In this document: positions 1,011-35,461 of the stretch, one piece after another
Layout: every line of letters begins with the position of its first letter
Position numbering within the stretch: the first letter of the stretch is position 1
Origin: Candidatus Omnitrophota bacterium
GTDB lineage: Bacteria; Omnitrophota; Gorgyraeia; Gygaellales; Profunditerraquicolaceae
Direction: 5' to 3'
DNA: 41,407 nucleotides
Assembly (NCBI GenBank): GCA_025453395.1
Contig: JALOQK010000002.1
Span: 305,102 to 346,508, forward strand
Translations under genes and position numbers: made by a program
Notes under the pieces: generated by a model
Database searches by the model: none
What the model saw: only the letters and a program-made list of their open reading frames with translations
What the model was told of the DNA's origin: nothing

Positions 1011-2213
1011 TTATTTACCTAAAATCTGTTTAAACTCTTTTGTTAAAGCCGGAACCACCTGCAAGACATCGCCAAGAATCCCGTAAGTGGCAACCTTAAA
1101 AATCGGCGCATCCGGGTCTTTGTTTATAGCGATAATTATCTTTGATGATTGCATGCCGACCAAATGCTGGATCTGCCCGGAAATCCCGCAGGCAAAGTAA
1201 ATCTTAGGGGCGACTGTCCGCCCTGTTTGCCCGACCTGATGAGAATAAGGCATCCATTCAGAATCAACCGCGGCACGTGAAGAGCCGACTGCCGCGCCTA
1301 TTACGTGGGCCAAATCTTCTAAAATCTTAAAATTTTCTTTTGAACCCATGCCTCTGCCGCCTGAAACAATAATATCGGCTTCGGCTATATTCACCAAAGA
1401 CTCTACTTCTTCAACTATATCAAGAAGATTTGTGCGGGAAAAATAATCGCTTATTTCAAATTTCTCGCGGATGATCTTTCCTTTTCTATGTTTGTCCGCG
1501 GGAATAGGCTGCATGACTTTATGCCTGACCGTGGCCATTTGCGGGCGATAGTTAGGCGAAATAATCGTAGCCATAATGTTCCCGCCAAAAGCGGGGCGAG
1601 TCTGTAAAAGGATTTTTTTATCCGGGTCAATATCAAGCCCGGTGCAATCAGCAGTAAGTCCGGCCTTGATATTAATGGCAACTCTTGCTATTAGCGACCT
1701 TCCTATGGCGGTAGCCCCGCACAAAAGTATTTCTGGTTTATATTTTTGAATTAATTTTACCAAAATATTGGTATAAGGTTCATCCTGAAAATTAGCGATT
1801 TCAGGGGCCTCTACCAAATAAACAACATCTGCGCCGCGCGCAATAACCTCATCTATTTCACCCTCCAGCTTATCCCCAATAAAAACCGCCCCCACCTGAC
1901 AGTCTAATTTTTTTGCTAATTCAGAAGCCTTTCCCAATAATTCAAAGGCAATGGACTGGACTTTGCCTTTTTTCTGCTCAATGAAAACCCATACCCCTTT
2001 ATAATCTTTGATATCCGGCAATACGCAGACAGGGGCAGATTTTTTAATTTCAATAGCCTTAAATTTACAGGCATCAACACAGGCGCCGCAGATATTGCAC
2101 TTATTAAAATCAATAACTGCCTTTTTATCCGTAACCGTTATGGCCCCAAAAGGGCAAACCTTAACGCATAACGTGCAACCAGTGCATTTTTCCTTAATAA
2201 GATGAATTGACAT
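1011..2213 (-). CDS. etfA: electron transfer flavoprotein alpha subunit with N-terminal 2[4Fe-4S] ferredoxin domain
   Basis: The protein has 400 residues. Residues 1-57 form a ferredoxin module with two complete cluster motifs: C10, C13, C16, C20 and C39, C42, C45, C49. The EtfA domain follows. Its C-terminal FAD-binding part carries GGRGMGSKENF, SHQVGQTGRTVAPK, ACGISGQIQHLVGM and INKDPDAPIF, all hallmark EtfA motifs. Fused ferredoxin domains are known in EtfA proteins of flavin-based electron-bifurcating complexes such as caffeyl-CoA reductase (CarE) and the bifurcating lactate dehydrogenase, where they pass electrons to ferredoxin. Its start is two bases after the etfB stop, and it is the last gene of the operon. 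Bifurcation is inferred from family and architecture. The substrate of the partner dehydrogenase is unknown. Confidence 0.93.
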   Translation of the reverse strand: MSIHLIKEKCTGCTLCVKVCPFGAITVTDKKAVIDFNKCNICGACVDACKFKAIEIKKSAPVCVLPDIKDYKGVWVFIEQKKGKVQSIAFELLGKASELAKKLDCQVGAVFIGDKLEGEIDEVIARGADVVYLVEAPEIANFQDEPYTNILVKLIQKYKPEILLCGATAIGRSLIARVAINIKAGLTADCTGLDIDPDKKILLQTRPAFGGNIMATIISPNYRPQMATVRHKVMQPIPADKHRKGKIIREKFEISDYFSRTNLLDIVEEVESLVNIAEADIIVSGGRGMGSKENFKILEDLAHVIGAAVGSSRAAVDSEWMPYSHQVGQTGRTVAPKIYFACGISGQIQHLVGMQSSKIIIAINKDPDAPIFKVATYGILGDVLQVVPALTKEFKQILGK

Positions 2214-2215
2214 GG

Positions 2216-2998
2216 TTATTTGACCTCATCTTTGATGAGCATTACTAACTCTTTTGCAATTTCCGGGGTTTCTCCCTGCAGTATCTGTCCGCCTGCTCTT
2301 GGCGTGGGCGTGAATATTTTTACAACCTGCGTAGGAGAGCCGCACAAGCCGATATTTTGCGCATCAAGGGCTAATTCTTTTTGAGTTAACAGATTAATTT
2401 TAGCGCTTTTTGCCCTCATCATCCCTTTTAGAGAAGCAAGCCTGGGCTGGTTGATTTCTTTGACTACGGTAATTAACGCTGGAAGCGGAGTTTGAATTAC
2501 TTCATAACCCTCTTCCATCATTCTTTCCACCCGCAGGGATTTATCTTTTATTTCCTCAATTTTCTTAACATAGGTTACCTGCGGAATATTTAAGTGCGCG
2601 GCTATTCCGGGGCCGACCTGCGCGGTATCCCCATCAGATGCCTGCTTGCCGCAAATAATAAGATCAAACTCCCCCATTTTCTTTATTGCCCCGGCCAAGG
2701 TATAGCTTGTTGCCCAGGTATCGCTTCCGGCAAAGGCACGGTCACAAATCAAATAACCCTCATCCGCGCCCAAAGAAATAGCCTCTTTAAGCGCGCTTTC
2801 TGCCTGAGCAGGCCCCATAGTAAGGACTAAGACTTTGCCGTTTGTTTTTTCTTTTAAGCGGATCGCTTCTTCAATAGCGTACATATCAAAGGGGTTAATT
2901 ATAGACTTAACCCCCTCGCGAATTAAAGTATTGGTTTCCGGATTGATCCTGACTTCAGTTGTCTCCGGAACCTGTTTTATGCAGACAATTATGTTCAT
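2216..2998 (-). CDS. etfB: electron transfer flavoprotein beta subunit
   Basis: The 260-residue protein shows the EtfB fold from the start: MNIIVCIKQVPET, then NPFDMYAIEEAIRLKE and LTMGPAQAESALKEAISLGADEG. IICGKQASDGDTAQVGP and VIQTPLPALITVVKEINQPR are also typical of EtfB. The subunit binds the nucleotide (AMP, or NAD plus a bifurcating FAD in bifurcating members). The start ATG overlaps the stop of the acyl-CoA dehydrogenase gene by four bases (ATGA), and etfA follows after two bases, so the three proteins should be made together. The long N-terminal loop and the presence of a ferredoxin-fused EtfA favour the bifurcating class, but this was not tested by alignment. Confidence 0.95.
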   Translation of the reverse strand: MNIIVCIKQVPETTEVRINPETNTLIREGVKSIINPFDMYAIEEAIRLKEKTNGKVLVLTMGPAQAESALKEAISLGADEGYLICDRAFAGSDTWATSYTLAGAIKKMGEFDLIICGKQASDGDTAQVGPGIAAHLNIPQVTYVKKIEEIKDKSLRVERMMEEGYEVIQTPLPALITVVKEINQPRLASLKGMMRAKSAKINLLTQKELALDAQNIGLCGSPTQVVKIFTPTPRAGGQILQGETPEIAKELVMLIKDEVK

Positions 2999-4146
2999 TT
3001 ACCTAATTCCTTAATTATCTGCAGGCCTATGATATTTCTTTGGATCTGGTTTGTTCCTTCATAGATCTGGGTAATCTTAGCATCCCTAACATATTTCTCA
3101 ATCGGATAATCTTTCATATAGCCATAGCCGCCAAAGATCTGCATGGCATCTAATGATACCTTCATTGCCACGTCTGACGCGTACATCTTGGCCATAGCTG
3201 ATTCCTTGGAAACATCAGTCTTTCCGGCATCAACCATCCGGGCGCAGGCATAAATTAATGCGCGCGCGGCTTCAATCTCAGTAGCCATGTCGGCAATCAT
3301 CCATTGAATCCCTTGAAAAGAAGATATGGATTTACCAAATTGATGGCGCTGCTTGGCGTATTTAACCGCTAAATCCAAAGACCCTTGGGCTATGCCTAAG
3401 GCCTGGGCTGCTACGCCCGGACGCGACATATCAAAGGTTTTCATGGTTACAATAAAACCCATGCCTTCGCGGGATAATAAATTCTCCTTTGGCAGCTTGC
3501 AATCGGTAAAAACAAGCTCGCGGGTTGAAGAAGCGCGAATACCGAATTTGTCTTCTTTTTTGCCAAAGCTAAAGCCTTTCATGCCCTTTTCTACTATAAA
3601 TGCGGACGCGCCCCTTGCCCCTTTATTTTTATCGGTCATGGCAATAACTACATAGGTTTCCGCGTCCCCGCCGTTGGTGATAAAATGCTTTAAGCCGTTA
3701 AGAATATAGTAATCACCCTCTTTTTTAGCGGTAGTTTTAATCGCCGAGGCGTCTGACCCGGCTTCAGGCTCGGTTACAGCAAACGCTGCCACTTTCTTGC
3801 CTGATGCTAGATCTGGAAGGTATTTTTGCTTTTGCGCGTCATTTCCGAAAAGAACGATTGGAAAAGTCCCCAGGGCTGATGCCGCGTAGCAAACCGCGAT
3901 ACCCCCGCAGGCGCGGGACAACTCTTCTGTGGCAAGGCATAGATTAGTTACGCTAATGCCCATGCCGCCGTATTGCTCCGGGATAAATAAACCGAATAAC
4001 CCGCCCTCGCCAATAACTTTAATGACCTCCCACGGGTATTCTTCGGATTGGTCATATTTTGCGGCTACAGGCTTAATTCTCTCCTGGGCGATTTTTCTTG
4101 CCAGTTCCTGCACCATATTTTGCTCTTCAGAAAACAAATAATCCAT
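2995..4146 (-). CDS. acyl-CoA dehydrogenase (butyryl-CoA dehydrogenase-like)
   Basis: At 383 residues this is the normal length of short-chain acyl-CoA dehydrogenases. The FAD/substrate signature AFAVTEPEAGSDASAIKTTA is present, with a C-terminal helix containing IFGGYGYMKDYPIEKYVRDA. The catalytic-base position is filled by E363 in YEGTNQIQRNI, as in butyryl-CoA dehydrogenase. The enzyme oxidises or reduces the alpha-beta bond of an acyl-CoA and exchanges electrons with Etf. An AGGGAGGT ribosome binding site lies at 4153-4160, before ATG at 4146. The gene heads the acd-etfB-etfA operon. Beta-oxidation, butyrate-type fermentation and an enoyl-CoA respiratory reductase remain possible. No thiolase, crotonase or CoA-transferase is nearby to decide. 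Confidence 0.93.
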   Translation of the reverse strand: MDYLFSEEQNMVQELARKIAQERIKPVAAKYDQSEEYPWEVIKVIGEGGLFGLFIPEQYGGMGISVTNLCLATEELSRACGGIAVCYAASALGTFPIVLFGNDAQKQKYLPDLASGKKVAAFAVTEPEAGSDASAIKTTAKKEGDYYILNGLKHFITNGGDAETYVVIAMTDKNKGARGASAFIVEKGMKGFSFGKKEDKFGIRASSTRELVFTDCKLPKENLLSREGMGFIVTMKTFDMSRPGVAAQALGIAQGSLDLAVKYAKQRHQFGKSISSFQGIQWMIADMATEIEAARALIYACARMVDAGKTDVSKESAMAKMYASDVAMKVSLDAMQIFGGYGYMKDYPIEKYVRDAKITQIYEGTNQIQRNIIGLQIIKELGK

Positions 4147-11928: not shown

Positions 11929-12699
11929 TTACCATCCCTGAACATACTCCATAAAAAGCAGCACTTTCTTTGCATCTTCCGGAGAAAATACAAATTGCTC
12001 TACATCTCTGGATAAAAGCTTAAAATCAAGCTTCTCGCAACGTTCAAGTAGCGCTGCTTTAAGCATTTCTTTATTCTTAATGCCAGCGCGATCTTTTAAA
12101 TATATAAAATCTGGTTTTGCTTTACCAGCCAAAAATATAGCATCATAGAAATCCCTGCCTATCGCCCTTTTACGGGCAAGAATAGCATAAAATTTCTGCG
12201 CCAGCAAAATATCAACAGGAACAACGTTAATACTCTTAAAAATATCAAACTTATTAATGATTACACTCTGCGCTAAATATTTAAAATTTTGCGGCTGGGC
12301 ATCCAGCTTAATTAAAATTTTTTCATCCTTATGCCCAGAAAGCCCTTCGTTAAACAAAACCCCCATAATCTTGATATCAGCGCTAAAAGCCCCCTTAAAT
12401 GAAGTGCCGGTTTGAATAACATATCCCTCAAGGGTAAGTTTCTTTGATACTGTTTGAGTTAAAACGCTAAAATCATTCTTATCCAGGCCCCGATTATCAA
12501 AATCCAGGTCCTCGGAAAATCTAGGCAGTCCATGCGCAATATGGATTGCCGTACCTCCCATAAACACCAGCTTTTGCCCATATCGATTGGCAAACACCGC
12601 TTCCAGTATCTTATACTGGAAATACTCTCGCAAAAGATTACGTTTAAAATGCCGTAACTGTTCAGGAAAAAATGATTCTATCTGTTTAAGCTCAAGCAT
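11929..12699 (-). CDS. AbiEii/AbiGii-type nucleotidyltransferase toxin
   Basis: The 256-residue protein carries the minimal nucleotidyltransferase signature of the AbiEii family: FMGGTAIHIAHGLPRFSEDL, with G48-G49-T50, R60, S62 and the metal-ligand pair D64/D66. Downstream, PVDILLAQKFYAILARKRAIGRDFYDAIFL is the family's second conserved block (the Lys and Arg/Asp helix). AbiEii proteins are type IV toxins that modify RNA or nucleotides and can abort phage infection. The gene overlaps the AbiEi antitoxin gene by eight bases. All recognisable active-site residues are intact. The activity is inferred from the family. Confidence 0.85.
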   Translation of the reverse strand: MLELKQIESFFPEQLRHFKRNLLREYFQYKILEAVFANRYGQKLVFMGGTAIHIAHGLPRFSEDLDFDNRGLDKNDFSVLTQTVSKKLTLEGYVIQTGTSFKGAFSADIKIMGVLFNEGLSGHKDEKILIKLDAQPQNFKYLAQSVIINKFDIFKSINVVPVDILLAQKFYAILARKRAIGRDFYDAIFLAGKAKPDFIYLKDRAGIKNKEMLKAALLERCEKLDFKLLSRDVEQFVFSPEDAKKVLLFMEYVQGW

Positions 12700-13309
12700 G
12701 CCTAATATACTCCCAAAAATTATTTACTCTACGCTTCAAAGATACCTGCCTATAAACACCCAGATAGCTATTTATCTTACTATGATTCATCAGCTTAAGA
12801 AATACCTCGCGATTAATACGCAGTCCTTCAAAGCTTACGGCATCGCGAAGTTCAGTCTTCATATAAAAAAGATCCAGAAATGCCTTTTCCGGAGAAGCCA
12901 ACTTAAATAACTTTTCATTATTCTTTAGAAAGTCAAAGCCGAAATACAGCTTTGGCTGAATAGTCCGGTAAATAAATGACCCTATTGGAGTTTTAAAATT
13001 GCTGGTTTTGCGGGTTGACGCGGAAGTAATTCCATAGACACTTTCCGGAATCAATCCATAATAAGCAAGCGCCATTTCAAACGAAACATACGAAGGCGCG
13101 TAAATTCGGTTGGCGATCTCAAAAAGAACCTTCTCATTAAGAGCCCTATCGGCAAAAAGGTAATACCCCTTAATTACCTTACGAATATAGCCCTTTTCCT
13201 GCCATTCGTTAAGCCGCCTACGATGAAACGCAGGGACAGCTTGCCGTATGTCAGCGAGCGAAAACACCGTAAATGGCCCTAAGATCTTTTGAAATTCGAT
13301 ATAAGTCAT
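12692..13309 (-). CDS. AbiEi-type antitoxin / transcriptional regulator
   Basis: The 205-residue partner of AbiEii has an N-terminal winged-helix-like region (FSLADIRQAVPAFHRRRLNEWQEKGYIRKVIKGYYLF) and a C-terminal domain with YVSFEMALAYYGLIPESVYGITSAST. Both are typical of AbiEi antitoxins, which repress their own operon. An in-frame TTG at 13363 would give 18 more residues. I chose ATG 13309 because GGAG lies seven bases upstream and because a TTGACA/TACATT promoter (13347-13375) overlaps the longer start. The stop overlaps the toxin start (ATGCTTGA), giving translational coupling. Confidence 0.8.
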   Translation of the reverse strand: MTYIEFQKILGPFTVFSLADIRQAVPAFHRRRLNEWQEKGYIRKVIKGYYLFADRALNEKVLFEIANRIYAPSYVSFEMALAYYGLIPESVYGITSASTRKTSNFKTPIGSFIYRTIQPKLYFGFDFLKNNEKLFKLASPEKAFLDLFYMKTELRDAVSFEGLRINREVFLKLMNHSKINSYLGVYRQVSLKRRVNNFWEYIRHA

Positions 13310-13346
13310 ACATTTCTCCAAAGTGCTATTTATAACATCTATAAGA

Positions 13347-13375
13347 AATGTATCACAAGACAATCAAACTGTCAA
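13347..13375 (-). promoter_or_regulatory. promoter of the AbiE operon
   Basis: TTGACA (13370-13375), a 17-base spacer and TACATT (13347-13352), with TG one base ahead as an extended -10. Transcription would start near 13340, which rules out the upstream TTG codon at 13363 as start. A loose inverted pair GACA-N7-TGTC lies over the -35 and could be a regulator half-site, but it is weak. Confidence 0.7.
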
Positions 13376-13415: not shown

Positions 13416-14615
13416 TTAATTAACAATTTTCTGATCGCACAAACCGCTTATAGCCCCTAAGAAAAACCAGAAAACCGGAGCATCCCGCATTCCCACAATG
13501 ATCAACGTGGATGCGTTAGCAAAAATCAAGACTGCCACAATGCCAGCAATTCCCCCTAAAATCATCCCCTGCCCGGGAACTGAATCACCCTGCCAAAGGG
13601 CTTTAAATTTAGATACCATTCTAAAAAAACAAAAGAATATCCCGCAAAAAGCAAAAAAACCAATAATGCCCATTTCCGATAAAACTTCTAAAAATGTGTT
13701 GTGGGCGTGCAAATGAATACGCCCTTCAGGATAACCTCCAACAGGACCAAACTCATAAAGCAACTTCTCAAAAGTCCCGGTGCCGGACCCCAAAAGCGGA
13801 TAGTGCAAAAATATCTTACCAGCTGTCTGGTATAATAACATCCTATCTCCCCAAGTATTAGTATTAAAAGTATTATGCAGCCTGTTTTGAAAAAAGGTAG
13901 GCATAAGAATAACCGCAAAAATAAGCAATAACGCCCATAAGAATAACCTTCTGGTTTTCTTAAGTAGAAGCACAGTAAATACTGCTACAGCTACTGAAAA
14001 CCATGTAGAACGCGAACCAACCCAAACAAAAACTGGCAGTATAAAAATTAGCCCCACAAAATTCAATACATGCCATAACCTTGCCCCGGCTAAAATAGCC
14101 CCACATGCGCACAACGGGGCAAAAATAATCAAGAAATTAGTCAGGGTTACATCCATTTTAAAAGCTGTAAAAAGCCGTTCCGGATGAAACGCTAAATAAT
14201 CTTTCATTCCCCCAATCCCTATTACTATATTCAAAGAAACGACAATCGTGCAAATAATAAAGAAATTCCTGATATTATTTTTGACAACAACAAGCCCGAG
14301 GATAAAGAATAAAACATAAGGGATATACCGATCCATTAATATCCCATAGCTATGCTTAGGTAACGCGCTAAATAAAGTTGACAAAATAGCTGCTCCCAAG
14401 AAAATTAATATGGCTTTAAGCACGGGGCTTACATGCAATAAACCCTTATTATATGCATATTTATACTTTAAAAAACTAGCAACAAATAAAACCGCAACTG
14501 ATAATCCTAAAATAACCTTAACCGCTATTTTTAAGAAAGGCGCTAAAACTAAAAACAGGCACAATGCAACTAATAAAAAACGATCTGCGAAATTAATGAG
14601 TTTTTGCTGTTCCAT
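13416..14615 (-). CDS. O-antigen ligase family membrane protein (WaaL-like)
   Basis: The 399-residue protein has roughly eleven or twelve transmembrane segments and a large loop in the second half. It has the O-antigen ligase/polymerase signature: GSRSTW (R202) in a membrane segment, then LLGSGTGTFEKLLYEFGP, and a periplasmic loop with HLHAHNTFLEVLSEMGIIG (H301, H303, H305, N306). It would transfer lipid-linked glycan to lipid A core or to another acceptor, or polymerise repeat units. Its start overlaps the stop of the next upstream gene by one base. It is the last gene of the glycan island. Confidence 0.82.
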   Translation of the reverse strand: MEQQKLINFADRFLLVALCLFLVLAPFLKIAVKVILGLSVAVLFVASFLKYKYAYNKGLLHVSPVLKAILIFLGAAILSTLFSALPKHSYGILMDRYIPYVLFFILGLVVVKNNIRNFFIICTIVVSLNIVIGIGGMKDYLAFHPERLFTAFKMDVTLTNFLIIFAPLCACGAILAGARLWHVLNFVGLIFILPVFVWVGSRSTWFSVAVAVFTVLLLKKTRRLFLWALLLIFAVILMPTFFQNRLHNTFNTNTWGDRMLLYQTAGKIFLHYPLLGSGTGTFEKLLYEFGPVGGYPEGRIHLHAHNTFLEVLSEMGIIGFFAFCGIFFCFFRMVSKFKALWQGDSVPGQGMILGGIAGIVAVLIFANASTLIIVGMRDAPVFWFFLGAISGLCDQKIVN

Positions 14616-15559
14616 TAGGCTATTATAATAAATAGTGAAAAAAGCCCCAGGATAAAAGTTATTATATAAAACCTTATCACTGTTTCCGGCTGGCTAAAAC
14701 CTAATTTCATAAAATAATGATGGATATGGGAAGAATCTCCGGTAAAAATATTTTGCCGCCTCAAAACCCTCCTCATTATCGCCAGTACCGTATCCAATAT
14801 CGGCAAAAAAAGCAGCAGCACCACAGGGACAAAATAATGATTTTGAACGCTGCCCATAGGTTTATATACTCCCAAACATCCTACAGATAAACCTAAGAAT
14901 AGGCTGCCCGTATCCCCCATGAATATTTTTGCCGGGTAGAAATTATACCTTAAAAACGCAAGTATTGCCCCAAACAATGCCAATGCCACGCAAGAAACAA
15001 ACACATCTTGCAAGATTAAACTAAAGATAAAAATAAATAATGATGTTACGCCAACAACCCCAGAGGCAAGCCCGTCTAAACCATCCAAAAGATTAATAGC
15101 GTTTGTTATGCCAACAAGCCATAACAAAGTTATCGGGATACTAAACATTCCGAGGTTAATATTGATAAATTTGCCGATAGTAACATTTTCTAAAAGAAAC
15201 CCTGACTTAATAATCATAAAGGAAATTATTATTTGAATTATAAATTTTAATCGCGCGCTACTGCCTTGAAAATCATCGTATATGCCTAACATTAAAATAA
15301 GAGTTATCCCGATTAACAGACTAAAAAACAAAGAAAAATTTACTCTAAAGAAAGAAAAATCAAAAAGGGAAATTACCGATAACCCTCCCAAAACCCCTAA
15401 GTAAATCGCCAACCCCCCAAGCTTGGTTACGATCTTCTTATGGATTTTACGATGGTTTGTTTTATCAATGGCGTAAAATTTTAAAGCAATATAGCGGATA
15501 GTAGGGGTAATTAGAAAAACGATTATAAAGGATATTGCCACTACAAAGAAATATGCCAT
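14615..15559 (-). CDS. undecaprenyl-phosphate sugar-1-phosphate transferase (WecA/TagO type)
   Basis: The 314-residue polytopic protein of the MraY/WecA superfamily has every motif of the family: IDKTNHRKIHKKIVTKLGG near the N-terminus, GIYDDFQG (D95/D96), NAINLLDGLDGLASG (N156, D159, D162), KIFMGDTGSLFLG (D216) and DSSHIHHYFMKLGFS (H278, H280, H281). It joins a sugar-1-phosphate, commonly GlcNAc-1-P, to the lipid carrier to start glycan assembly. The ribosome binding site GAAGGTG precedes ATG 15559. Lack of a UDP-MurNAc-pentapeptide context argues against MraY. It is the only recognisable initiating transferase here. Confidence 0.9.
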   Translation of the reverse strand: MAYFFVVAISFIIVFLITPTIRYIALKFYAIDKTNHRKIHKKIVTKLGGLAIYLGVLGGLSVISLFDFSFFRVNFSLFFSLLIGITLILMLGIYDDFQGSSARLKFIIQIIISFMIIKSGFLLENVTIGKFININLGMFSIPITLLWLVGITNAINLLDGLDGLASGVVGVTSLFIFIFSLILQDVFVSCVALALFGAILAFLRYNFYPAKIFMGDTGSLFLGLSVGCLGVYKPMGSVQNHYFVPVVLLLFLPILDTVLAIMRRVLRRQNIFTGDSSHIHHYFMKLGFSQPETVIRFYIITFILGLFSLFIIIA

Positions 15560-15605
15560 ATCACCTTCTCTTATTTAGCAGTTAAAAAGTTCATACTTGG
15601 CAAAC

Positions 15606-16424
15606 TTAAGATAACTTATCCATCGCCCTGCGATTTACCAGCTTTCTTTCCTGGTCAAAAAACCACCCCCACTTAAAGAAATATTTGACAGCAGAAACAA
15701 TATGACACCAAAATAAATAGTAATTACTATAAGAACCTCTGGAGTAATGGTGAATTACAGAAACCTGCGGATAAAAAACTGTCCGATAATGTTTATGGAT
15801 TCTTCTTGAGAAATCAACATCTTCTAAGTACATGAAAAACCTCTGGTCAAAGATCCCGACTTTCGCAAGAATCTCCCTGCGCAAAAACATAAAACAGCCT
15901 GATAGACACGGCACATCCATAATCATTCTATATCCAGTAAATCTTAATTCGTAATTCTCAAGACTTTTCCTAAATAATCTGTTTACTATAGCTATATTGC
16001 TCCTTCTGAGAAATAAATCAAGCGGATTCGGCAATAACTTACAAAGATACTGAATTGATCCATCAGGATAACAAACTTTTGGCATCAGAAGCCCAACGTT
16101 TATATTCTTCTCCATGAAATTAAAGATTGCTTCCAATACCCCACTCTCAAAGGAAATGTCGGGGTTTAATACTAAGTGATATTTTGACAGCCCCGCTGAA
16201 TTGCGTATCGCTATATTATGAGCAGCACCAAAACCTAAATTCTTATTGTTAAAAATATACTCGGCGTTAAAATCAACTAATATATCTCTTAACTTGTCAG
16301 ACGGAGAATTGTCAATAATATACAATTTTAGATTCAGTGAAGAATTTAAAAAACTTTGTACCGCTTTCTTCAGCTGCGCGCCTTCTGTTTTGTAAACAAC
16401 AATAGAGCAAATAATATCATACAT
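15606..16424 (-). CDS. GT2 glycosyltransferase (rhamnosyltransferase-like)
   Basis: The 272-residue family-2 glycosyltransferase begins IICSIVVYKTEGAQLKKAVQ, and its nucleotide-sugar region is LYIIDNSPSD and NNKNLGFGAAHNIAI. HLVLNPDISF serves as the DxD-like segment. The acceptor part has DVPCLSGCFMFLRREILAKV and FDQRFFMYLEDVDFSRRI, the ED(V/x)D motif common in WbbL-type rhamnosyltransferases. It adds one sugar on the cytoplasmic face. Donor and acceptor are not readable. It lies between the pyruvyl/FrhB genes and the initiating transferase in the same operon. Confidence 0.88.
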   Translation of the reverse strand: MYDIICSIVVYKTEGAQLKKAVQSFLNSSLNLKLYIIDNSPSDKLRDILVDFNAEYIFNNKNLGFGAAHNIAIRNSAGLSKYHLVLNPDISFESGVLEAIFNFMEKNINVGLLMPKVCYPDGSIQYLCKLLPNPLDLFLRRSNIAIVNRLFRKSLENYELRFTGYRMIMDVPCLSGCFMFLRREILAKVGIFDQRFFMYLEDVDFSRRIHKHYRTVFYPQVSVIHHYSRGSYSNYYLFWCHIVSAVKYFFKWGWFFDQERKLVNRRAMDKLS

Positions 16425-16438
16425 TCTAATTCGCCCCT

Positions 16439-17119
16439 CTAAAAGTATAATCTTTTATAATGCTCCAGGAAACGGCTTAACCTTATACTGCGCTTCTCTT
16501 TTGGAGCAATATATAGGATGCGAGAAAAAACCCTAGAATAAAACTTCTTAACCAGCGTGAAGAAAAAGGCCTCTTTTTTTCTTTGATGGAGAATATAAAT
16601 ATTAGAGCAATTACCCGTGTTGTCATTCCATTTTCTATCTAAAACTTCCAAATATTTATTTTCTTTCAAATAATGGATTACATGGCCGTTTTCATAAAGC
16701 GCCACGTCTTGTTTGGGTATAGCATCTTCATCAACATGGTCCATAATAGTTTTGAAGGCTTCTTTTGCTTGATTGCAGTTTTTAATAATAAACATGCCGG
16801 AATTTATTCGGTTAGATCTGCCTAAGGTCATATAAATATATTTACCTGGCCTCTCAAGAGTGAGAATCCCAGGAGCACCAAGGCTAATCCTACAATCGGC
16901 ATCCACGAAAAATAACCAGTTATACCCTCTCTGCAATCCATGCAGAATTAAAGGGATTTTCATCCAAGCGGAATCCGAGGCACTTATCCTTTTCTTGGGA
17001 TGATCAAATAAAATATACCGGTATCCGTATTTATCAGCATATTTCCTATGGCTTAGGATATTATCTTTGTAGATTCGGTCATAATTATTTGTTGCGATAG
17101 AGAACATTAAGACTTCCAC
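16439..17119 (-). CDS. putative GT-A glycosyltransferase (GT34/GMA12-like)
   Basis: The 226-residue protein has the block WMKIPLILHGLQRGYNWLFF followed by VDADCRISL, giving a DxD motif (D73, D75), and later INSGMFIIKN. This order resembles the GMA12/MNN10 galactosyl/mannosyltransferase family (GT34) and some bacterial relatives. The N-terminus FSIATNNYDRIYKDNILSHRKYADKYGY also fits. I chose GTG at 17119 because AAGGAG sits eight bases upstream, overlapping the stop region of the FrhB-like gene; ATG at 17107 is an alternative. The donor is unknown. The basic C-terminus may bind membrane. Confidence 0.6.
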   Translation of the reverse strand: MEVLMFSIATNNYDRIYKDNILSHRKYADKYGYRYILFDHPKKRISASDSAWMKIPLILHGLQRGYNWLFFVDADCRISLGAPGILTLERPGKYIYMTLGRSNRINSGMFIIKNCNQAKEAFKTIMDHVDEDAIPKQDVALYENGHVIHYLKENKYLEVLDRKWNDNTGNCSNIYILHQRKKEAFFFTLVKKFYSRVFSRILYIAPKEKRSIRLSRFLEHYKRLYF

Positions 17120-17123
17120 AAAT

Positions 17124-18356
17124 CTACTCCTTTTCCTTAATATTGACGCATCCCATCAGATAAAAGTTTAAAGCTTTAAGCCACAACTTAAGATTCATTT
17201 TAATTTCAGATTTTAATAATTTTGAACGATAAACAGGATATTTCTTAGCAAACAGCTTAAGAAAGAACAACAAATATTGATACTTATTTTTTTTATCCCC
17301 TCGCTGTGTCTTTTCAAATAATGCCAACGCTCCTGGATCAACTGGAAAAATATCAATTTTATTTGCTGATTTTATTTCCTGTATAAATGCCTTACCGACT
17401 GTGTTTCTTATGACGCCTACTGAATAATTTATCTGGTTGTTTATCTTATAGGCAAACCATCCGCTACCGATAGAAATATCTGCTAACTCTGATGTCTGAT
17501 CAATACACATCCGGCAACGAGCAGGGATAGCATCGATGCCTATGGATAAAAGAGCGTTCCAGAATTCTAAATGATTGATTATCCTGTCTTCGTTATTTGA
17601 TCTGATCAATGTTTTGCCCGGAGGAAAATCACCAAAGCGGTATTTTATAGATTGAACTTGATCTTCCTTTATGCCTCTTTCCTTAAGCGCCGCAAGCGTA
17701 CCTAAGAAACTAATCCCATGTGTGCAAAAAAGCCCAAGGTGTAAAACTATTTTTTTCTTAAGGTATTTATTGACTAGCTCGGCTTTTCTAATGCCCTGAA
17801 TCTGGCAAGGCATGCCCACAATTGCAAACTTTTGCCCTTCTTGAGTATTCAGGATTTCTTTCAACATTATGTTAACAGGGACAGGGCAATATTTTGCGCC
17901 GACGGATGAAATAATTTCTTCTTGAGTTCTGGCGATAAATGAGTGTGGCCGCAATGGGTTACCATCATCCATCACCGTAATCAATGCCCCATCAATAATT
18001 CCTCTTTCAAGCGCAGAAATTAATAACTGCGTAACCAGACCGCCCGATGACGAATCATAACGAAGATTATTATCTGTAGAATAACCACTGAAACAACTAA
18101 GATAACTACCCAAAACGCTGCTCTGTGCCTGCCGGTCAAATAAAACCTTATTTAACTCTTCAAAATCTACAGAATGCCCCGGGCAGACTTTATAACAAAC
18201 CCCACAACCAACGCATTTTTTACTATCAACCACCGTACGATATACTCCTTTATCGCGATCAACCACCATATTGATAGCGTTTACTGGACACATTCCCACG
18301 CATGTTCCGCAGCCAGTACATAACCCATCCATATATACACTCTTAATATTTATCAT
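17124..18356 (-). CDS. FrhB-like (F420 hydrogenase/dehydrogenase beta-type) iron-sulfur protein
   Basis: The protein has 410 residues. An N-terminal 2[4Fe-4S] ferredoxin domain (C13, C16, C19, C23; C48, C51, C54, C58) is followed by the FrhB/FdhB N- and C-terminal domains. YDSSSGGLVTQLLISALERG, VGAKYCPVPVN and FAIVGMPCQIQGIRK are family motifs, as is ARCRMCIDQTSELADISIGS. True FrhB subunits bind FAD and F420 in methanogens. Copies inside polysaccharide clusters are frequent and their reaction is unproved; a flavin/iron-sulfur reduction step on a sugar or lipid-linked intermediate is possible. The gene overlaps the pyruvyltransferase gene by four bases, which argues for joint action. Confidence 0.85.
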   Translation of the reverse strand: MINIKSVYMDGLCTGCGTCVGMCPVNAINMVVDRDKGVYRTVVDSKKCVGCGVCYKVCPGHSVDFEELNKVLFDRQAQSSVLGSYLSCFSGYSTDNNLRYDSSSGGLVTQLLISALERGIIDGALITVMDDGNPLRPHSFIARTQEEIISSVGAKYCPVPVNIMLKEILNTQEGQKFAIVGMPCQIQGIRKAELVNKYLKKKIVLHLGLFCTHGISFLGTLAALKERGIKEDQVQSIKYRFGDFPPGKTLIRSNNEDRIINHLEFWNALLSIGIDAIPARCRMCIDQTSELADISIGSGWFAYKINNQINYSVGVIRNTVGKAFIQEIKSANKIDIFPVDPGALALFEKTQRGDKKNKYQYLLFFLKLFAKKYPVYRSKLLKSEIKMNLKLWLKALNFYLMGCVNIKEKE

Positions 18357-19657
18357 CTCTTGCCTCTAAGATCGCGGGATAACTTATTTTTTTGATCATA
18401 AATAATCCTAAGAAGCTCGGAAGCCATACCGGTTTGCTTCTCCAGCTCTATGCGTGAATTTTTAAGAGCCGCCCTGATTTCTTCACTATGCGCCAGGCTA
18501 TCCTTAAGCAACTCTATGGCCTTTAGAATTGTAAAATCATTAACATCGCAAGACCTATTACCCTGATGAATTAAATTCATATACCCCTGCAGCTTAAGTT
18601 GTGTATTCACCGTAATTGTTGGCGTACCAGCCATGGTAGCAAAAATCGCAACATGCATCCTAGTACTGATAAATAAGTCCAATTGCCCCAGCATCCCTTT
18701 ACATTCACGAGGAGTATATTCTTTAGAAAGCAATGTTACATTATTCCGGCTGGAAAATAACTCATATAACTTCTGAGTTAAATCCCAATCGCCAAGGTCT
18801 TTTTGCAGTCTCCTATTAGCCAGAAAGAATACAACCGAACCGTTAAGCTGATCAAGAATAAAACGGCAGAGTTGCTGCATGGTTAAGAAATATCCTTCAT
18901 ACTTTATATCTTCCCATTTGGATATCGCCATGCCTATAAGCGGCCGCTTGTCAAGTTTAACCCCCTGAGATTCTAAGAGCCTGCGGGCCTGATCTAAAGG
19001 AATATATGGTTGTTTTACTGCCAAATCCGGAACCAAATATGTTTTTCGAGGGTTAATTTTCATATTCCGAACCGTCTGAAAAGAAAATTCGTCCCTGGGA
19101 AGAACTAAATCGCACAAATTCAACACATAACCTACCAATACCCTAATAAAACCTTTCTTAAGCGGCCCGATGCTTTGAGGGAAGATTGCTACAACTTTTT
19201 CTAATTTATAAGCCAGCCAGTATCCAAAGAGAAAAAGCGGCACCCTTTTCCATTCACTATCCTGCAATGCTTCTCCGCTAATGCTGACAACGATATCTGC
19301 GTCTGAATATGCTTTAAGTGCAGCTAATTTCTTTTTAGAAAAAGTATATTTGTCAAATTTTACCATAAGCCCTAAACGTTTTAGTACCGATAGATTAAAA
19401 ACATTGGCAAATACCCATAAACTCTCCCTAACAATCCAAGCAACCTTTTCTATGAACGAATAACCGGAGAATTGCTCCGCCCATAAAGTCTCCAATGTCC
19501 TGCACCTTGAGTATTTTGCTATCGAAACAGGATCAAAAGATAAAATAGTAAATTCGGCTTCTGGAAATTTAATCTTTAGCTGCTCGAGCGCACTATCCAC
19601 TAAAGCCAAGTTTCCGATATGTTGAGCTGAATAAGCATCAATAAGTAATATATTCAT
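18353..19657 (-). CDS. polysaccharide pyruvyl transferase family protein
   Basis: This 434-residue protein is of the CsaB/WcaK/PssM type. It starts NILLIDAYSAQHIGNLALVDSAL, the typical 'N-x-GN.gD' entry. It continues with VVSISGEALQDSEW, VVAIFPQSIGPLKKG, LPRDEFSFQTVRNM and a second Rossmann-like half ending FISTRMHVAIFATMAGTPTITVN; the R-M-H is the family's conserved catalytic/phosphoenolpyruvate-binding segment. It would add a ketal-linked pyruvate to a sugar, giving negative charge. It is flanked by overlaps with the flippase and the FrhB-like gene. The name is family-level, since some members in such clusters may have other activities. Confidence 0.85.
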   Translation of the reverse strand: MNILLIDAYSAQHIGNLALVDSALEQLKIKFPEAEFTILSFDPVSIAKYSRCRTLETLWAEQFSGYSFIEKVAWIVRESLWVFANVFNLSVLKRLGLMVKFDKYTFSKKKLAALKAYSDADIVVSISGEALQDSEWKRVPLFLFGYWLAYKLEKVVAIFPQSIGPLKKGFIRVLVGYVLNLCDLVLPRDEFSFQTVRNMKINPRKTYLVPDLAVKQPYIPLDQARRLLESQGVKLDKRPLIGMAISKWEDIKYEGYFLTMQQLCRFILDQLNGSVVFFLANRRLQKDLGDWDLTQKLYELFSSRNNVTLLSKEYTPRECKGMLGQLDLFISTRMHVAIFATMAGTPTITVNTQLKLQGYMNLIHQGNRSCDVNDFTILKAIELLKDSLAHSEEIRAALKNSRIELEKQTGMASELLRIIYDQKNKLSRDLRGKR

Positions 19658-20961
19658 TGATCCACGGTTCGATTCCTGCTAAAAGCGTAGATAATCAAAA
19701 TCCAACTTAAATACATAAGCGGGAAACATATCCCAGCGATCACAACCCCGTTTAAACCATAGAAATAAGCTCCCAAATAATTTAATAAGACGCCAAAAAC
19801 TGCGCTTAAGATTTTAGGATAAATTAAAACTTTAGTATCAGCCTTAACGAAGAAAGTCATATTAATAACCTGACCGATAGCGAATAATCCTCCCGACAAA
19901 ACTAATAGCGGCAGCAATCGGGATACCGAGCGATATTCCGGAGCGACTAACAATGAAAAGATTTCATTGTGGAATATCCAAGAAAACGCTATGGATACCA
20001 AAGTAGACATAACCGCCATTATTATCAATAGATTGTTCCACTTTAACGTAGTCGTCACCCTGTAGGAATCATTACCTGCTCCAGCCTGGCTGAAAAATAC
20101 AGGACTTACCATCTGCAAGACCATGCCTGAGAAAATAACAATCGGATAGCATCCGAATTGATAAAGTACAGAATAAAGCCCCACATTCCTGCTATCAGTG
20201 AAATAAAATAGCGCCCATCTGCTGGAAGCAATCTGCGCCCAGGTAAACAACCCCCATGTAGCAAACGGCCAGGCGTAATGAAACAACTGTCTGTTATATT
20301 TATTTAAGATATCCGTCGGCACTTCTATCTTTTCTGCCGCAGGAATCAATCTTAATATTCTATTTCTAAAAAAAACAAGCTGAGAACTTAAAACTACCAA
20401 AGAGGCAATAATGTAACCAAACATAACAATGCTGCTACGCGCACCCCATAGGCTAATTAGGCCAATCGGGATAAAAAAATGCAGCCATTGTCCTATCCCC
20501 TGATGCAATGCCACAACTTTTCTTTGTCTGGCAGCATTTTGAATGTGATCTAGCACAATATTATAACCTGCAAAAATGGAATACAGAGAAGCTAACGTAA
20601 AAAGCCATAACCACTTTGTATAACCAAACGAGAACAGAATTATAAGCAAAACAACAGAAACAGCTACAATTAAAGTAGTCGCCTTAGTCAATAAAAGCTT
20701 AACTGCTTTAATAAAAACATAAAGTTGCCCATCTTCATGGGCCACCGGGAAAAACCTTAAAGAACACAATCCTAGAGGCAAAAGAATTGCCTGCTGCGCC
20801 ACGATCGCTACTGTCATACCAATAGCCAGATCGCCGTATATTGATGGACTAAGCTTATAAGTGAGCAAGCGAACGCCAAAAACTCCACCAGATACTACTA
20901 AAAATTGCCCTAAACAAATCCAAGCCATTTCTATGCTTAATTTTTTGATTCTTACTAACAT
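19654..20961 (-). CDS. wzx: polysaccharide flippase, MATE/Wzx-like
   Basis: The 435-residue protein has about twelve hydrophobic helices and little else. It begins LSIEMAWICLGQFLVVSGGVFGVRLLTYKLSPSIYGDLAIG, the usual 'yg' motif of Wzx/oligosaccharide flippases (polysaccharide biosynthesis protein family). It would flip lipid-linked repeat units across the inner membrane. A GAGGG ribosome binding site precedes ATG 20961. The stop overlaps the pyruvyltransferase start by four bases. The assignment rests on topology and context, because Wzx sequences are poorly conserved. Confidence 0.8.
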   Translation of the reverse strand: MLVRIKKLSIEMAWICLGQFLVVSGGVFGVRLLTYKLSPSIYGDLAIGMTVAIVAQQAILLPLGLCSLRFFPVAHEDGQLYVFIKAVKLLLTKATTLIVAVSVVLLIILFSFGYTKWLWLFTLASLYSIFAGYNIVLDHIQNAARQRKVVALHQGIGQWLHFFIPIGLISLWGARSSIVMFGYIIASLVVLSSQLVFFRNRILRLIPAAEKIEVPTDILNKYNRQLFHYAWPFATWGLFTWAQIASSRWALFYFTDSRNVGLYSVLYQFGCYPIVIFSGMVLQMVSPVFFSQAGAGNDSYRVTTTLKWNNLLIIMAVMSTLVSIAFSWIFHNEIFSLLVAPEYRSVSRLLPLLVLSGGLFAIGQVINMTFFVKADTKVLIYPKILSAVFGVLLNYLGAYFYGLNGVVIAGICFPLMYLSWILIIYAFSRNRTVDQ

Positions 20962-33700: not shown

Positions 33701-34594
33701 TTACCTGAAAAACATAGAAAAAATTTTCTTTGCATATTTAGGATACGACGCAGGCCTGCTAATAGCCCGAAAAACTACACTAATCCAAAATCCACACTTT
33801 AATAAATGTCTGTTGATATTTAGTCTATCCGCAATTTTCTCAATAAAAATTGGACCATTGCCGCGCCATCTACCTCTGGGTCCTTGGGAATTCTTGAGTA
33901 TCTTAAAATCAGAAAAAGTCTCAACCGGCCTATTACGAATCAATCGCACCTTACCATCTTTCGTCCATAAATTCTCCAACAACTTTCGGTCATGGCGCCA
34001 GAATTCCTGGCATAAAATACTTCCAGCACTCTTACTTTTATCTTCATTAAGAAATACATCGCTTAAGATAATAGTGCCGCCTTTTTCATAAGCCCTCATC
34101 GCAAGGTCATTATCCCAAATTATTGCTATGAAATTCCTATCGATACCTCCCAAATCATTAAAAAATTTTTTAGACATTAAAGGAGCAAGCGGTAAAACAA
34201 TAGAATTGGGGTCATTAACGTCAAAACGATGCGCAAAATGCGATTCATCTTTACCGTTTGTGCTTGACCTGCAAGATAATAGCAATTTCTCATTATGATA
34301 GCTTTTATATGTTTCATAGAGCCTATCCAAAGGCCTGGGCATATTAAACGTACAATCATCAGCAAGAACCATAACTAATTCAGTGTTAATATTCCTAAAG
34401 GCTATTTCTGCGCATTGGGCTGGTTTTACTAGCGAATGGATAAAGCGAAAATTATTTGGCAATTCATAATCCGGTGGATTAGGCCCTACAAAGACTAATT
34501 CAAAGTCTATATCGTTATCGCCTATGCTTTTATATAAAGTCATCCAATTCTTCGGACGGTGAGCCGTAGCAACAATGCCAATTTTAGGCTTCAT
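33701..34594 (-). CDS. putative GT-A-like glycosyltransferase, tandem copy 2
   Basis: The 297-residue protein is of no family I can name. The N-terminus KIGIVATAHRPKNWMTLYKS plus FELVFVGPNPPDYELP looks like a GT2-type entry. LVMVLADDCTF provides an acidic pair D79/D80 where GT2 enzymes bind metal. Later blocks are GGIDRNFIAIIWDNDLAMRA, LSDVFLNEDKSKS and EFWRHDRKLLENLW. By eye it is more than half identical to the next gene upstream (34598-35461), with even the SQGPRGRWRG block kept, so the two arose by tandem duplication. It lies in the operon, three bases after its twin. A glycosyltransferase role is inferred. Confidence 0.7.
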   Translation of the reverse strand: MKPKIGIVATAHRPKNWMTLYKSIGDNDIDFELVFVGPNPPDYELPNNFRFIHSLVKPAQCAEIAFRNINTELVMVLADDCTFNMPRPLDRLYETYKSYHNEKLLLSCRSSTNGKDESHFAHRFDVNDPNSIVLPLAPLMSKKFFNDLGGIDRNFIAIIWDNDLAMRAYEKGGTIILSDVFLNEDKSKSAGSILCQEFWRHDRKLLENLWTKDGKVRLIRNRPVETFSDFKILKNSQGPRGRWRGNGPIFIEKIADRLNINRHLLKCGFWISVVFRAISRPASYPKYAKKIFSMFFR

Positions 34595-34597
34595 AGC

Positions 34598-35461
34598 TTA
34601 TTTCCCTTTAATCGCAAGAAATATCCGCTTTGCATAATTAAAATACATTTTTGGTTTTTTAATGCCTCGAACCAATCTCGGCAGGTTATCTTCTATTTTT
34701 TCAAGAACAACTGGACCTTTCCCGCGCCAGCGACCACGAGGCCCTTGGGATTCAGTAAGTATATTCAGATCATGGAAAGATTCTACTACTGGGTTTGCCC
34801 GGTTAAAATTAACCTTGCCATTTTTAACCCAAAGATCCTCAAGTAATCCTCTATCATGCCTCCAAAATTCCTCACAAAGAGCGCTCCCAGCAGTCCTCTT
34901 GCCCTTGTCTTCATCAAGAAATACATCGCTAAGAATGACACTTCCACCCAACGCATGAACCCTCATCGCAATATCTAAATCCCACATTATTCCAATAAAA
35001 TTCCTGTCAATGCCGCCTACTTTAATCCAAAGCTTCCTAGACATTAACCCGGAAAGCGGCACAATAGGAGAGTTTATATCGTTAGCAAAAAAATGGGAAC
35101 AACTGGATGGCTGCTCTTCTCCGTCCATCATATATCTGCATGATACTATTATTTTATCACTATGATAGCTTTGATATTTTTCATAGAGCACATCTAAAGG
35201 CTTGGGTGTTTTAAATATACAATCATCAGCCATGCACATCACTAAATCCGACATGGTGCTTCTAAAAGCTATCTCCAGACATTGCGTTGGTTTTACTAAA
35301 GATTTTATAAAACGAAAATTTCTTGGCAAGTTGAAGCTAGGCGGATTAGGCCCTACAAAGACCAGCTCAAAATCAATTTGGTTATCACCAATGCTTTTAT
35401 GCAGGTTCATCCAATTCTGCGGCCGATGCGCAGAAGAAATAATGCTTATTTTAGGATTCAT
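34598..35461 (-). CDS. putative GT-A-like glycosyltransferase, tandem copy 1
   Basis: The 287-residue twin of the 33701-34594 product. It has the same order of blocks: KISIISSAHRPQNWMNLHKS, FELVFVGPNPPSFNLP, LVMCMADDCIFKTPKPLD, VGGIDRNFIGIMWDLDIAMR, LSDVFLDEDKGK, EFWRHDRGLLEDLW and SQGPRGRWRGKGP. The acidic pair and the HDR element are conserved in both, which points to a shared catalytic plan. Differences gather around residues 110-140 and at the C-terminus, where acceptor choice could differ. It follows wzt after 25 bases with an AAGGG ribosome binding site. Confidence 0.7.
   Translation of the reverse strand: MNPKISIISSAHRPQNWMNLHKSIGDNQIDFELVFVGPNPPSFNLPRNFRFIKSLVKPTQCLEIAFRSTMSDLVMCMADDCIFKTPKPLDVLYEKYQSYHSDKIIVSCRYMMDGEEQPSSCSHFFANDINSPIVPLSGLMSRKLWIKVGGIDRNFIGIMWDLDIAMRVHALGGSVILSDVFLDEDKGKRTAGSALCEEFWRHDRGLLEDLWVKNGKVNFNRANPVVESFHDLNILTESQGPRGRWRGKGPVVLEKIEDNLPRLVRGIKKPKMYFNYAKRIFLAIKGK

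Follow-up and report, generated by a model that had tools for sequence, protein, structure and literature searches.

A predicted FrhB-like iron-sulfur flavoprotein and pyruvyltransferase pair that probably adds reduced pyruvate to bacterial surface sugars

What does an FrhB-like iron-sulfur flavoprotein do beside a pyruvyltransferase in a bacterial glycan gene cluster? The question is raised by a stretch of 41,407 nucleotides (the window; contig 2, positions 305102-346508) from a Candidatus Omnitrophota genome of 1.62 Mb that is 96.7% complete. The pair and its surroundings, in window coordinates, are as follows.

13416-17119, minus strand: downstream glycan genes, whole run (Pfam)
13416-14615, minus strand: Wzy_C/O-antigen ligase family gene, downstream (Pfam)
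14615-15559, minus strand: WecA/MraY-type gene, downstream (Pfam)
15606-16424 and 16439-17119, minus strand: glycosyltransferases, downstream (Pfam)
17124-18356, minus strand: FrhB-like iron-sulfur flavoprotein gene, 410 aa (ORF list and Pfam)
18353-18356, minus strand: ATGA start/stop overlap of the FrhB-like gene and the PSP gene, 4 bases (ORF coordinates)
18353-19657, minus strand: pyruvyltransferase-family gene (PSP, PF04230), 434 aa (ORF list and Pfam)
19654-20961, minus strand: polytopic membrane protein upstream of the PSP gene
21019-41377, minus strand: upstream glycan genes, whole run (Pfam/NCBIfam)

All glycan genes across 13416-41377 lie on one strand with the pair inside. The upstream run encodes an acyltransferase, glycosyltransferases, methyltransferases, members of the GDP-mannose dehydratase family, an ABC exporter, a heptose kinase-like protein and epimerases (Pfam/NCBIfam), and it also contains two tandem paralogous genes without a Pfam match (33701-35461, minus strand). 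The membrane protein at 19654-20961 had no match in Pfam or NCBIfam; its sequence character and position indicate that it is probably a Wzx-like flippase. ORF coordinates and Pfam bear out the two genes and the 4-base overlap as they were described in the first-pass annotation. Counted by us on the ORF list, overlaps occur at 12 of the 41 junctions between adjacent genes in the window, among them the next junction upstream of the PSP gene (19654-19657, 4 bases), and the overlap within the pair is therefore uninformative by itself. No further FrhB-family gene accompanies the one in the window, which is the single copy in this genome. Outside the glycan cluster, the region 11929-13363 (minus strand) encodes a type IV toxin-antitoxin pair, with overlapping genes for an AbiEii-family toxin and an AbiEi-like antitoxin, which stands between the cluster and glycolysis genes. 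At 1011-4146 (minus strand) lies a set of genes resembling an acryloyl-CoA reductase/Etf module: ETF alpha, which carries a 2x[4Fe-4S] domain at its N-terminus, ETF beta and an acyl-CoA dehydrogenase.

The FrhB-like protein is matched by FrhB_FdhB_C (E-value 5e-29), FrhB_FdhB_N (1e-21) and Fer4_7 (1e-10), and its PF04422 and PF04432 domains both exceed the curated cut-offs (101.6 and 77.2 bits versus 23.3 and 22). Three features within the gene are needed for what follows.

18180-18320, minus strand: N-terminal dicluster ferredoxin domain (Fer4_7 match, aa 13-59)
17505-17807, minus strand: region with four extra conserved cysteines, C184, C211, C281 and C284
17637-17639, minus strand: codon of Arg240, a signature residue together with Ser104 and Trp300

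Both [4Fe-4S] motifs of the ferredoxin domain are intact (C13/16/19/23 and C48/51/54/58), as had been claimed, and their eight cysteines are invariant in an 11-row FrhB alignment. The count of two clusters has to be raised: C184, C211, C281 and C284 are cysteines throughout the PSP-linked sequences (29/29) and those of the FrhB/FdhB clade (24/24), are also kept in the aligned solved chains of the FrhB family, and probably hold a third [4Fe-4S] cluster in the core of FrhB. With twelve conserved cysteines, three clusters rather than two, plus FAD, are to be expected. AlphaFold models of the FrhB-like protein (pLDDT 76.8, pTM 0.78) and of the PSP (pLDDT 83.7, pTM 0.84), built from 11 and 13 sequences and adequate for the fold rather than for active-site geometry, were compared with solved structures by Foldseek. 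The FrhB-like model matches the solved family members 8riu, 8rja, 7np8, 4ci0 and 5dqr, with the F420-reducing CODH component 8riu at E 1e-22, 7-hydroxymethyl chlorophyll a reductase (HCAR, 5dqr) at E 2e-15, and Fsr and Frh also among the matches. FrhB, FdhB, the N-terminal domain of Fsr and the F420-reducing CODH component have the same fold and domain order as the window protein, and share with it the ferredoxin domain (in most of them), the four extra cysteines and the glycine motif of the FAD core.

The strongest indication of function comes from the company that such genes keep. A gene of the FrhB family was counted as linked when it lay no more than 300 bp from a PSP gene or was fused to one. 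A profile from a 4-row FrhB alignment, which brought in plain ferredoxins and F420-type proteins in large number, was left out of this count, and a search for related loci with the single FrhB-like protein as query gave no match. The first-pass annotation had stated that such pairs recur in polysaccharide loci; they do so far beyond chance, with 22/32 FrhB-family genes linked, fusions included, across three independent genome draws (the window's phylum, Bacteroidales and Lachnospirales), and refutation by a lack of co-occurrence in this gene-neighbourhood survey failed. In the window's phylum both families are rare, with FrhB-family genes in 11 and PSP genes in 65 of 285 genomes, and 9 of the 11 FrhB genes directly adjoin a PSP gene or are fused to one. 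The chance that a random gene in the phylum flanks a PSP gene is roughly 3 in 10,000 (a rough figure from 84 matches in roughly 540 Mb), and 9/11 would still have a probability below one in a million if every locus were assumed to hold one PSP among 20 genes. The Bacteroidales draw gave 6 linked genes out of 9 and the Lachnospirales draw 7 out of 12, two tandem fused copies among them.

Adjacent pairs occur in both gene orders, and fusions of both orders, FrhB-PSP (L016, L018, L020, L147) and PSP-FrhB (L139, L048, L151, L158), are spread over several lineages. The pair is found in anaerobes and aerobes alike. Its carriers include the cultured Sinorhizobium meliloti (pSymB, NC_003078, at 258247-259236 with the PSP upstream; 14-base overlap of the two genes), Dinoroseobacter shibae (DSHI_RS20755/RS20760, 8-base overlap), Bacteroides finegoldii (two loci) and Pseudobutyrivibrio xylanivorans (two copies), and also Marinibacterium (FrhB and PSP fused) and Ruminococcus albus. 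The R. albus pair has its ferredoxin as a separate neighbouring gene, in line with an electron-input role. In P. xylanivorans the PSP gene of the first pair is annotated in two overlapping pieces, and on pNP95 (L259:17220-20846) the second PSP and FrhB genes have one membrane-protein-sized gene between them. FrhB-like proteins were also met in human faecal records named 'Bacteriophage sp.' (MT837642, MT836044 and seven others); these may be capsule DNA from bacteria that was wrongly labelled as phage. With a Lachnospirales FrhB as the query, a distant DNA search turned up no match in E. coli genomes, a result of little weight because low DNA identity is to be expected. Our literature searches found no paper describing an FrhB-PSP pair, and a review of pyruvylation mentions neither F420 nor ferredoxin. 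Functional coupling of the FrhB-like protein and the PSP is well supported.

A tree of 68 FrhB sequences was used to place the linked proteins. The label 'PSP-linked' requires 9 changes on this tree versus 22 in shuffles, and a 24-row FrhB/FdhB clade (support 100) of methanogen, Asgard, haloarchaeal and actinobacterial proteins contains no PSP-linked member. The glycan FrhBs have a signature of their own, consisting of SGG, Arg240, Asp298 and Trp300. Ser104 is present in 29/29 PSP-linked proteins versus 0/24 of the FrhB/FdhB clade, Arg240 in 27/29 versus 1/24, Asp298 in 28/29 versus 0/24 and Trp300 in 25/29 versus 0/24; where the glycan FrhBs have SGG and the added Arg240 and Trp300, the FrhB/FdhB/Fsr/CODH group has D/N-GG. 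The window protein keeps three of the four residues (S104, R240 and W300), and its position 298 is Ser, as in the FrhB/FdhB clade. Its nearest relatives form a weakly supported group without a linked PSP, in glycosyltransferase and methyltransferase contexts. The window PSP pairs with that of locus L019 (support 97-99), whereas the FrhBs of the same two loci do not group, an incongruence which indicates that partners were exchanged or that the pairing arose more than once. Judged from these trees, the two genes have not been inherited strictly together. Related FrhBs without a PSP lie near glycosyltransferases and methyltransferases at L013, L130 and L149. At two of these loci (L130:5803-9927 and L149:1043-4309) a methyltransferase, an FrhB and an LPG_synthase_TM membrane protein form a recurring cassette without a PSP, found in Bacteroidales and Desulfobacterales. 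Another non-PSP partner is seen in Lachnospirales, where a nitroreductase domain is fused to an FrhB domain (L138:1677-3425).

The family name suggests an F420-dependent oxidoreductase borrowed for glycan synthesis, and F420-reducing complexes are indeed among the best sequence and fold matches. This reading is largely refuted and has almost nothing left to recommend it. A profile search for the F420 ligase (PF01996) found none in the 96.7% complete genome but did detect the ligase in three F420 control archaea, and the CofD-family match in the genome is YvcK (TIGR01826, 369.6 bits versus a cut-off of 196). PF01933 had been tried as the test for F420 and was rejected in favour of PF01996, as the profile includes YvcK and matches in E. 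coli. The FrhB-like protein also falls far below the cut-off of TIGR03289, the equivalog of F420-dependent FrhB (106.5 versus 331.5 bits), and the signature residues differ. Use of F420 is thus unlikely, given the missing ligase and the glycan FrhBs' own signature, and this supports the statement that nothing here relates to methanogenesis. The partner also differs: FrhB and FdhB work with a hydrogenase or dehydrogenase, whereas the window protein stands with a glycan transferase in a genome without the ligase. FrhB is known from F420 hydrogenases, but the family also has members that do without F420, namely the 8-vinyl reductase BciB and HCAR. Of the traits of a BciB/HCAR-type reductase (ferredoxin dependence, FAD and Fe-S cofactors, reduction of a C=C or C-O bond), only the cofactor motifs can be seen in the sequence of the window protein. 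Both enzymes are FrhB homologues that work without F420, as the window protein probably does, but they act on chlorophyll substrates and the literature consulted reports no PSP partner for them. BciB, which carries FAD and Fe-S clusters, draws on reduced ferredoxin to reduce the C=C bond of a vinyl group (PMC4836224).

The PSP is a clear member of its family (PF04230, E 1.3e-31, aa 13-351; 111 bits versus a cut-off of 25.3) and lies below the cut-off of TIGR03609, the CsaB equivalog (90.4 versus 213.1 bits). The top Foldseek matches of its model are glycosyltransferases and UDP-GlcNAc 2-epimerases, so that the fold is read as GT-B. An alignment of 114 PSPs places the residues of interest as follows.

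18593-19096, minus strand: PEP-site residues R188, R333, H335 and K355, and S246

The residues R188, R333, H335 and K355 correspond to R148, R306, H308 and K328 of CsaB; the PEP-binding residues are thus kept, and are common to CsaB, Pvg1p and the window PSP. Mutagenesis of CsaB showed R148, H308 and K328, which bind PEP, to be essential or important, and replacement of R207 left the enzyme inactive (PMC10435577). A strand-end arginine ('GVSVRxW') is invariant in an alignment of 12 CsaB-type sequences and, by motif and spacing, is likely the counterpart of R207; when profiles were searched against the PDB, Pvg1p aligned around the R-x-H motif only, leaving R207/R266 outside. This arginine is present in 50/84 unlinked PSPs versus 0/30 FrhB-linked ones (one row being ambiguous), and its position is Ser246 in the window PSP. 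The CsaB-type PSPs in the alignment have the arginine, and ketal transferases are not known to have an FrhB partner; the window PSP has the serine and the partner. The arginine is also missing from some unlinked PSPs. A tree test found 8 independent pairs on supported branches, of which 1-3 were informative, all in the predicted direction, a number so small that p cannot go under 0.25. Loss of the arginine was accordingly rejected as proof of a changed reaction, the phylogenetic test being underpowered, and is kept as a lead.

What the joint reaction might be was considered from the proteins, their motifs, their recurrent adjacency and fusion, and the missing F420 ligase. To our knowledge, ketal pyruvyltransferases need no FrhB-type partner. 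CsaB assays contain just PEP and the acceptor (PMC10435577); as a ketal needs nothing more, the presence of a redox partner implies another end product. The pair probably decorates sugars of the cell surface with reduced pyruvate, most likely as an ether of lactic acid. We regard it as an evenly balanced proposition that the two proteins are one catalytic unit, in which the PSP transfers a PEP-derived unit and the FrhB-like protein reduces it, probably to a lactyl ether. The PSP would bind PEP and move the three-carbon unit onto a sugar hydroxyl, the acceptor probably being a cytoplasmic precursor that is lipid-linked or activated by a nucleotide. The FrhB-like protein, with FAD and probably three [4Fe-4S] clusters, would draw electrons of low potential from a donor that is most likely ferredoxin and would reduce the unit, as an enolpyruvyl or hemiketal sugar, ahead of closure to the pyruvate ketal. 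The product would be a reduced form of the pyruvyl group, for which a 1-carboxyethyl (lactyl) ether is the most likely candidate. The redox step in glycan decoration proposed in the first-pass annotation is the natural reading of the coupling, and it is the reaction itself, with its electron donor, step order, intermediate and lactyl product, that we infer.

The same logic is known from MurA and MurB, where a PEP-derived enolpyruvyl ether on a sugar is reduced by a flavin enzyme to a lactyl ether; MurB takes its electrons from NADPH, whereas they would pass through iron-sulfur clusters here. Pfam finds no EPSP-synthase or MurB domain in either protein, and there is no homology on either side. 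It is plausible, at somewhat less than an even chance, that the pair is a second and widespread solution to the MurA/MurB problem, in which the PSP would stop at the enolpyruvyl or hemiketal sugar because it is without the catalytic loop arginine, leaving the FrhB-like protein to form the lactyl ether. Lactyl ethers are documented as sugar decorations in bacterial glycans (PMC10609480, PMC8466920). In Shigella boydii type 17, glucolactilic acid synthesis has been ascribed to two genes, according to the title of a 2006 paper given in PMC5643014, and a two-gene requirement, as worded in that title, fits a proposal based on a pair.

Three other roles for the FrhB-like protein were weighed against this joint reduction. 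It might act on the sugar, removing or reducing a hydroxyl or keto group before the PSP adds an ordinary ketal. HCAR, whose structure matches the model, reduces a hydroxymethyl group, and the related loci without a PSP (see above) suggest that an FrhB can act without one; the repeated fusions to PSP in both orders favour a shared intermediate instead, and we consider action on the sugar rather unlikely. Iron-sulfur proteins can also be sensors, and a non-catalytic redox sensor or structural partner that switches a ketal-forming PSP with the oxygen or redox state could be imagined in the anaerobes and aerobes that carry the pair. Such a role is improbable, since the FAD-core motif and every cluster cysteine are kept and CsaB was assayed without such a partner (PMC10435577). 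Several members of the FrhB/FdhB family catalyse reversible hydride transfer, so that the protein might instead take electrons from the sugar or the pyruvyl product and hand them to ferredoxin. BciB and HCAR, the relatives that do without F420, both act as reductases, however, and we know of no oxidised pyruvate decoration, which leaves this oxidative role only a slim chance.

If the proposed reduction of pyruvate is correct, a large branch of the FrhB family, which databases list under the name 'coenzyme F420 hydrogenase beta subunit', would gain a second function that is related neither to chlorophyll nor to F420. In many glycan loci of bacteria, one gene is annotated as a subunit of a methanogen hydrogenase, and this label would be wrong if the pair produces lactyl ethers. 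Sinorhizobium meliloti and D. shibae are genetically tractable carriers of the pair. A class of surface sugar decorations would obtain candidate genes for its biosynthesis in this pair, and sequence would allow glycan structure to be predicted in gut Bacteroides, rumen Lachnospiraceae, rhizobia and uncultured phyla.
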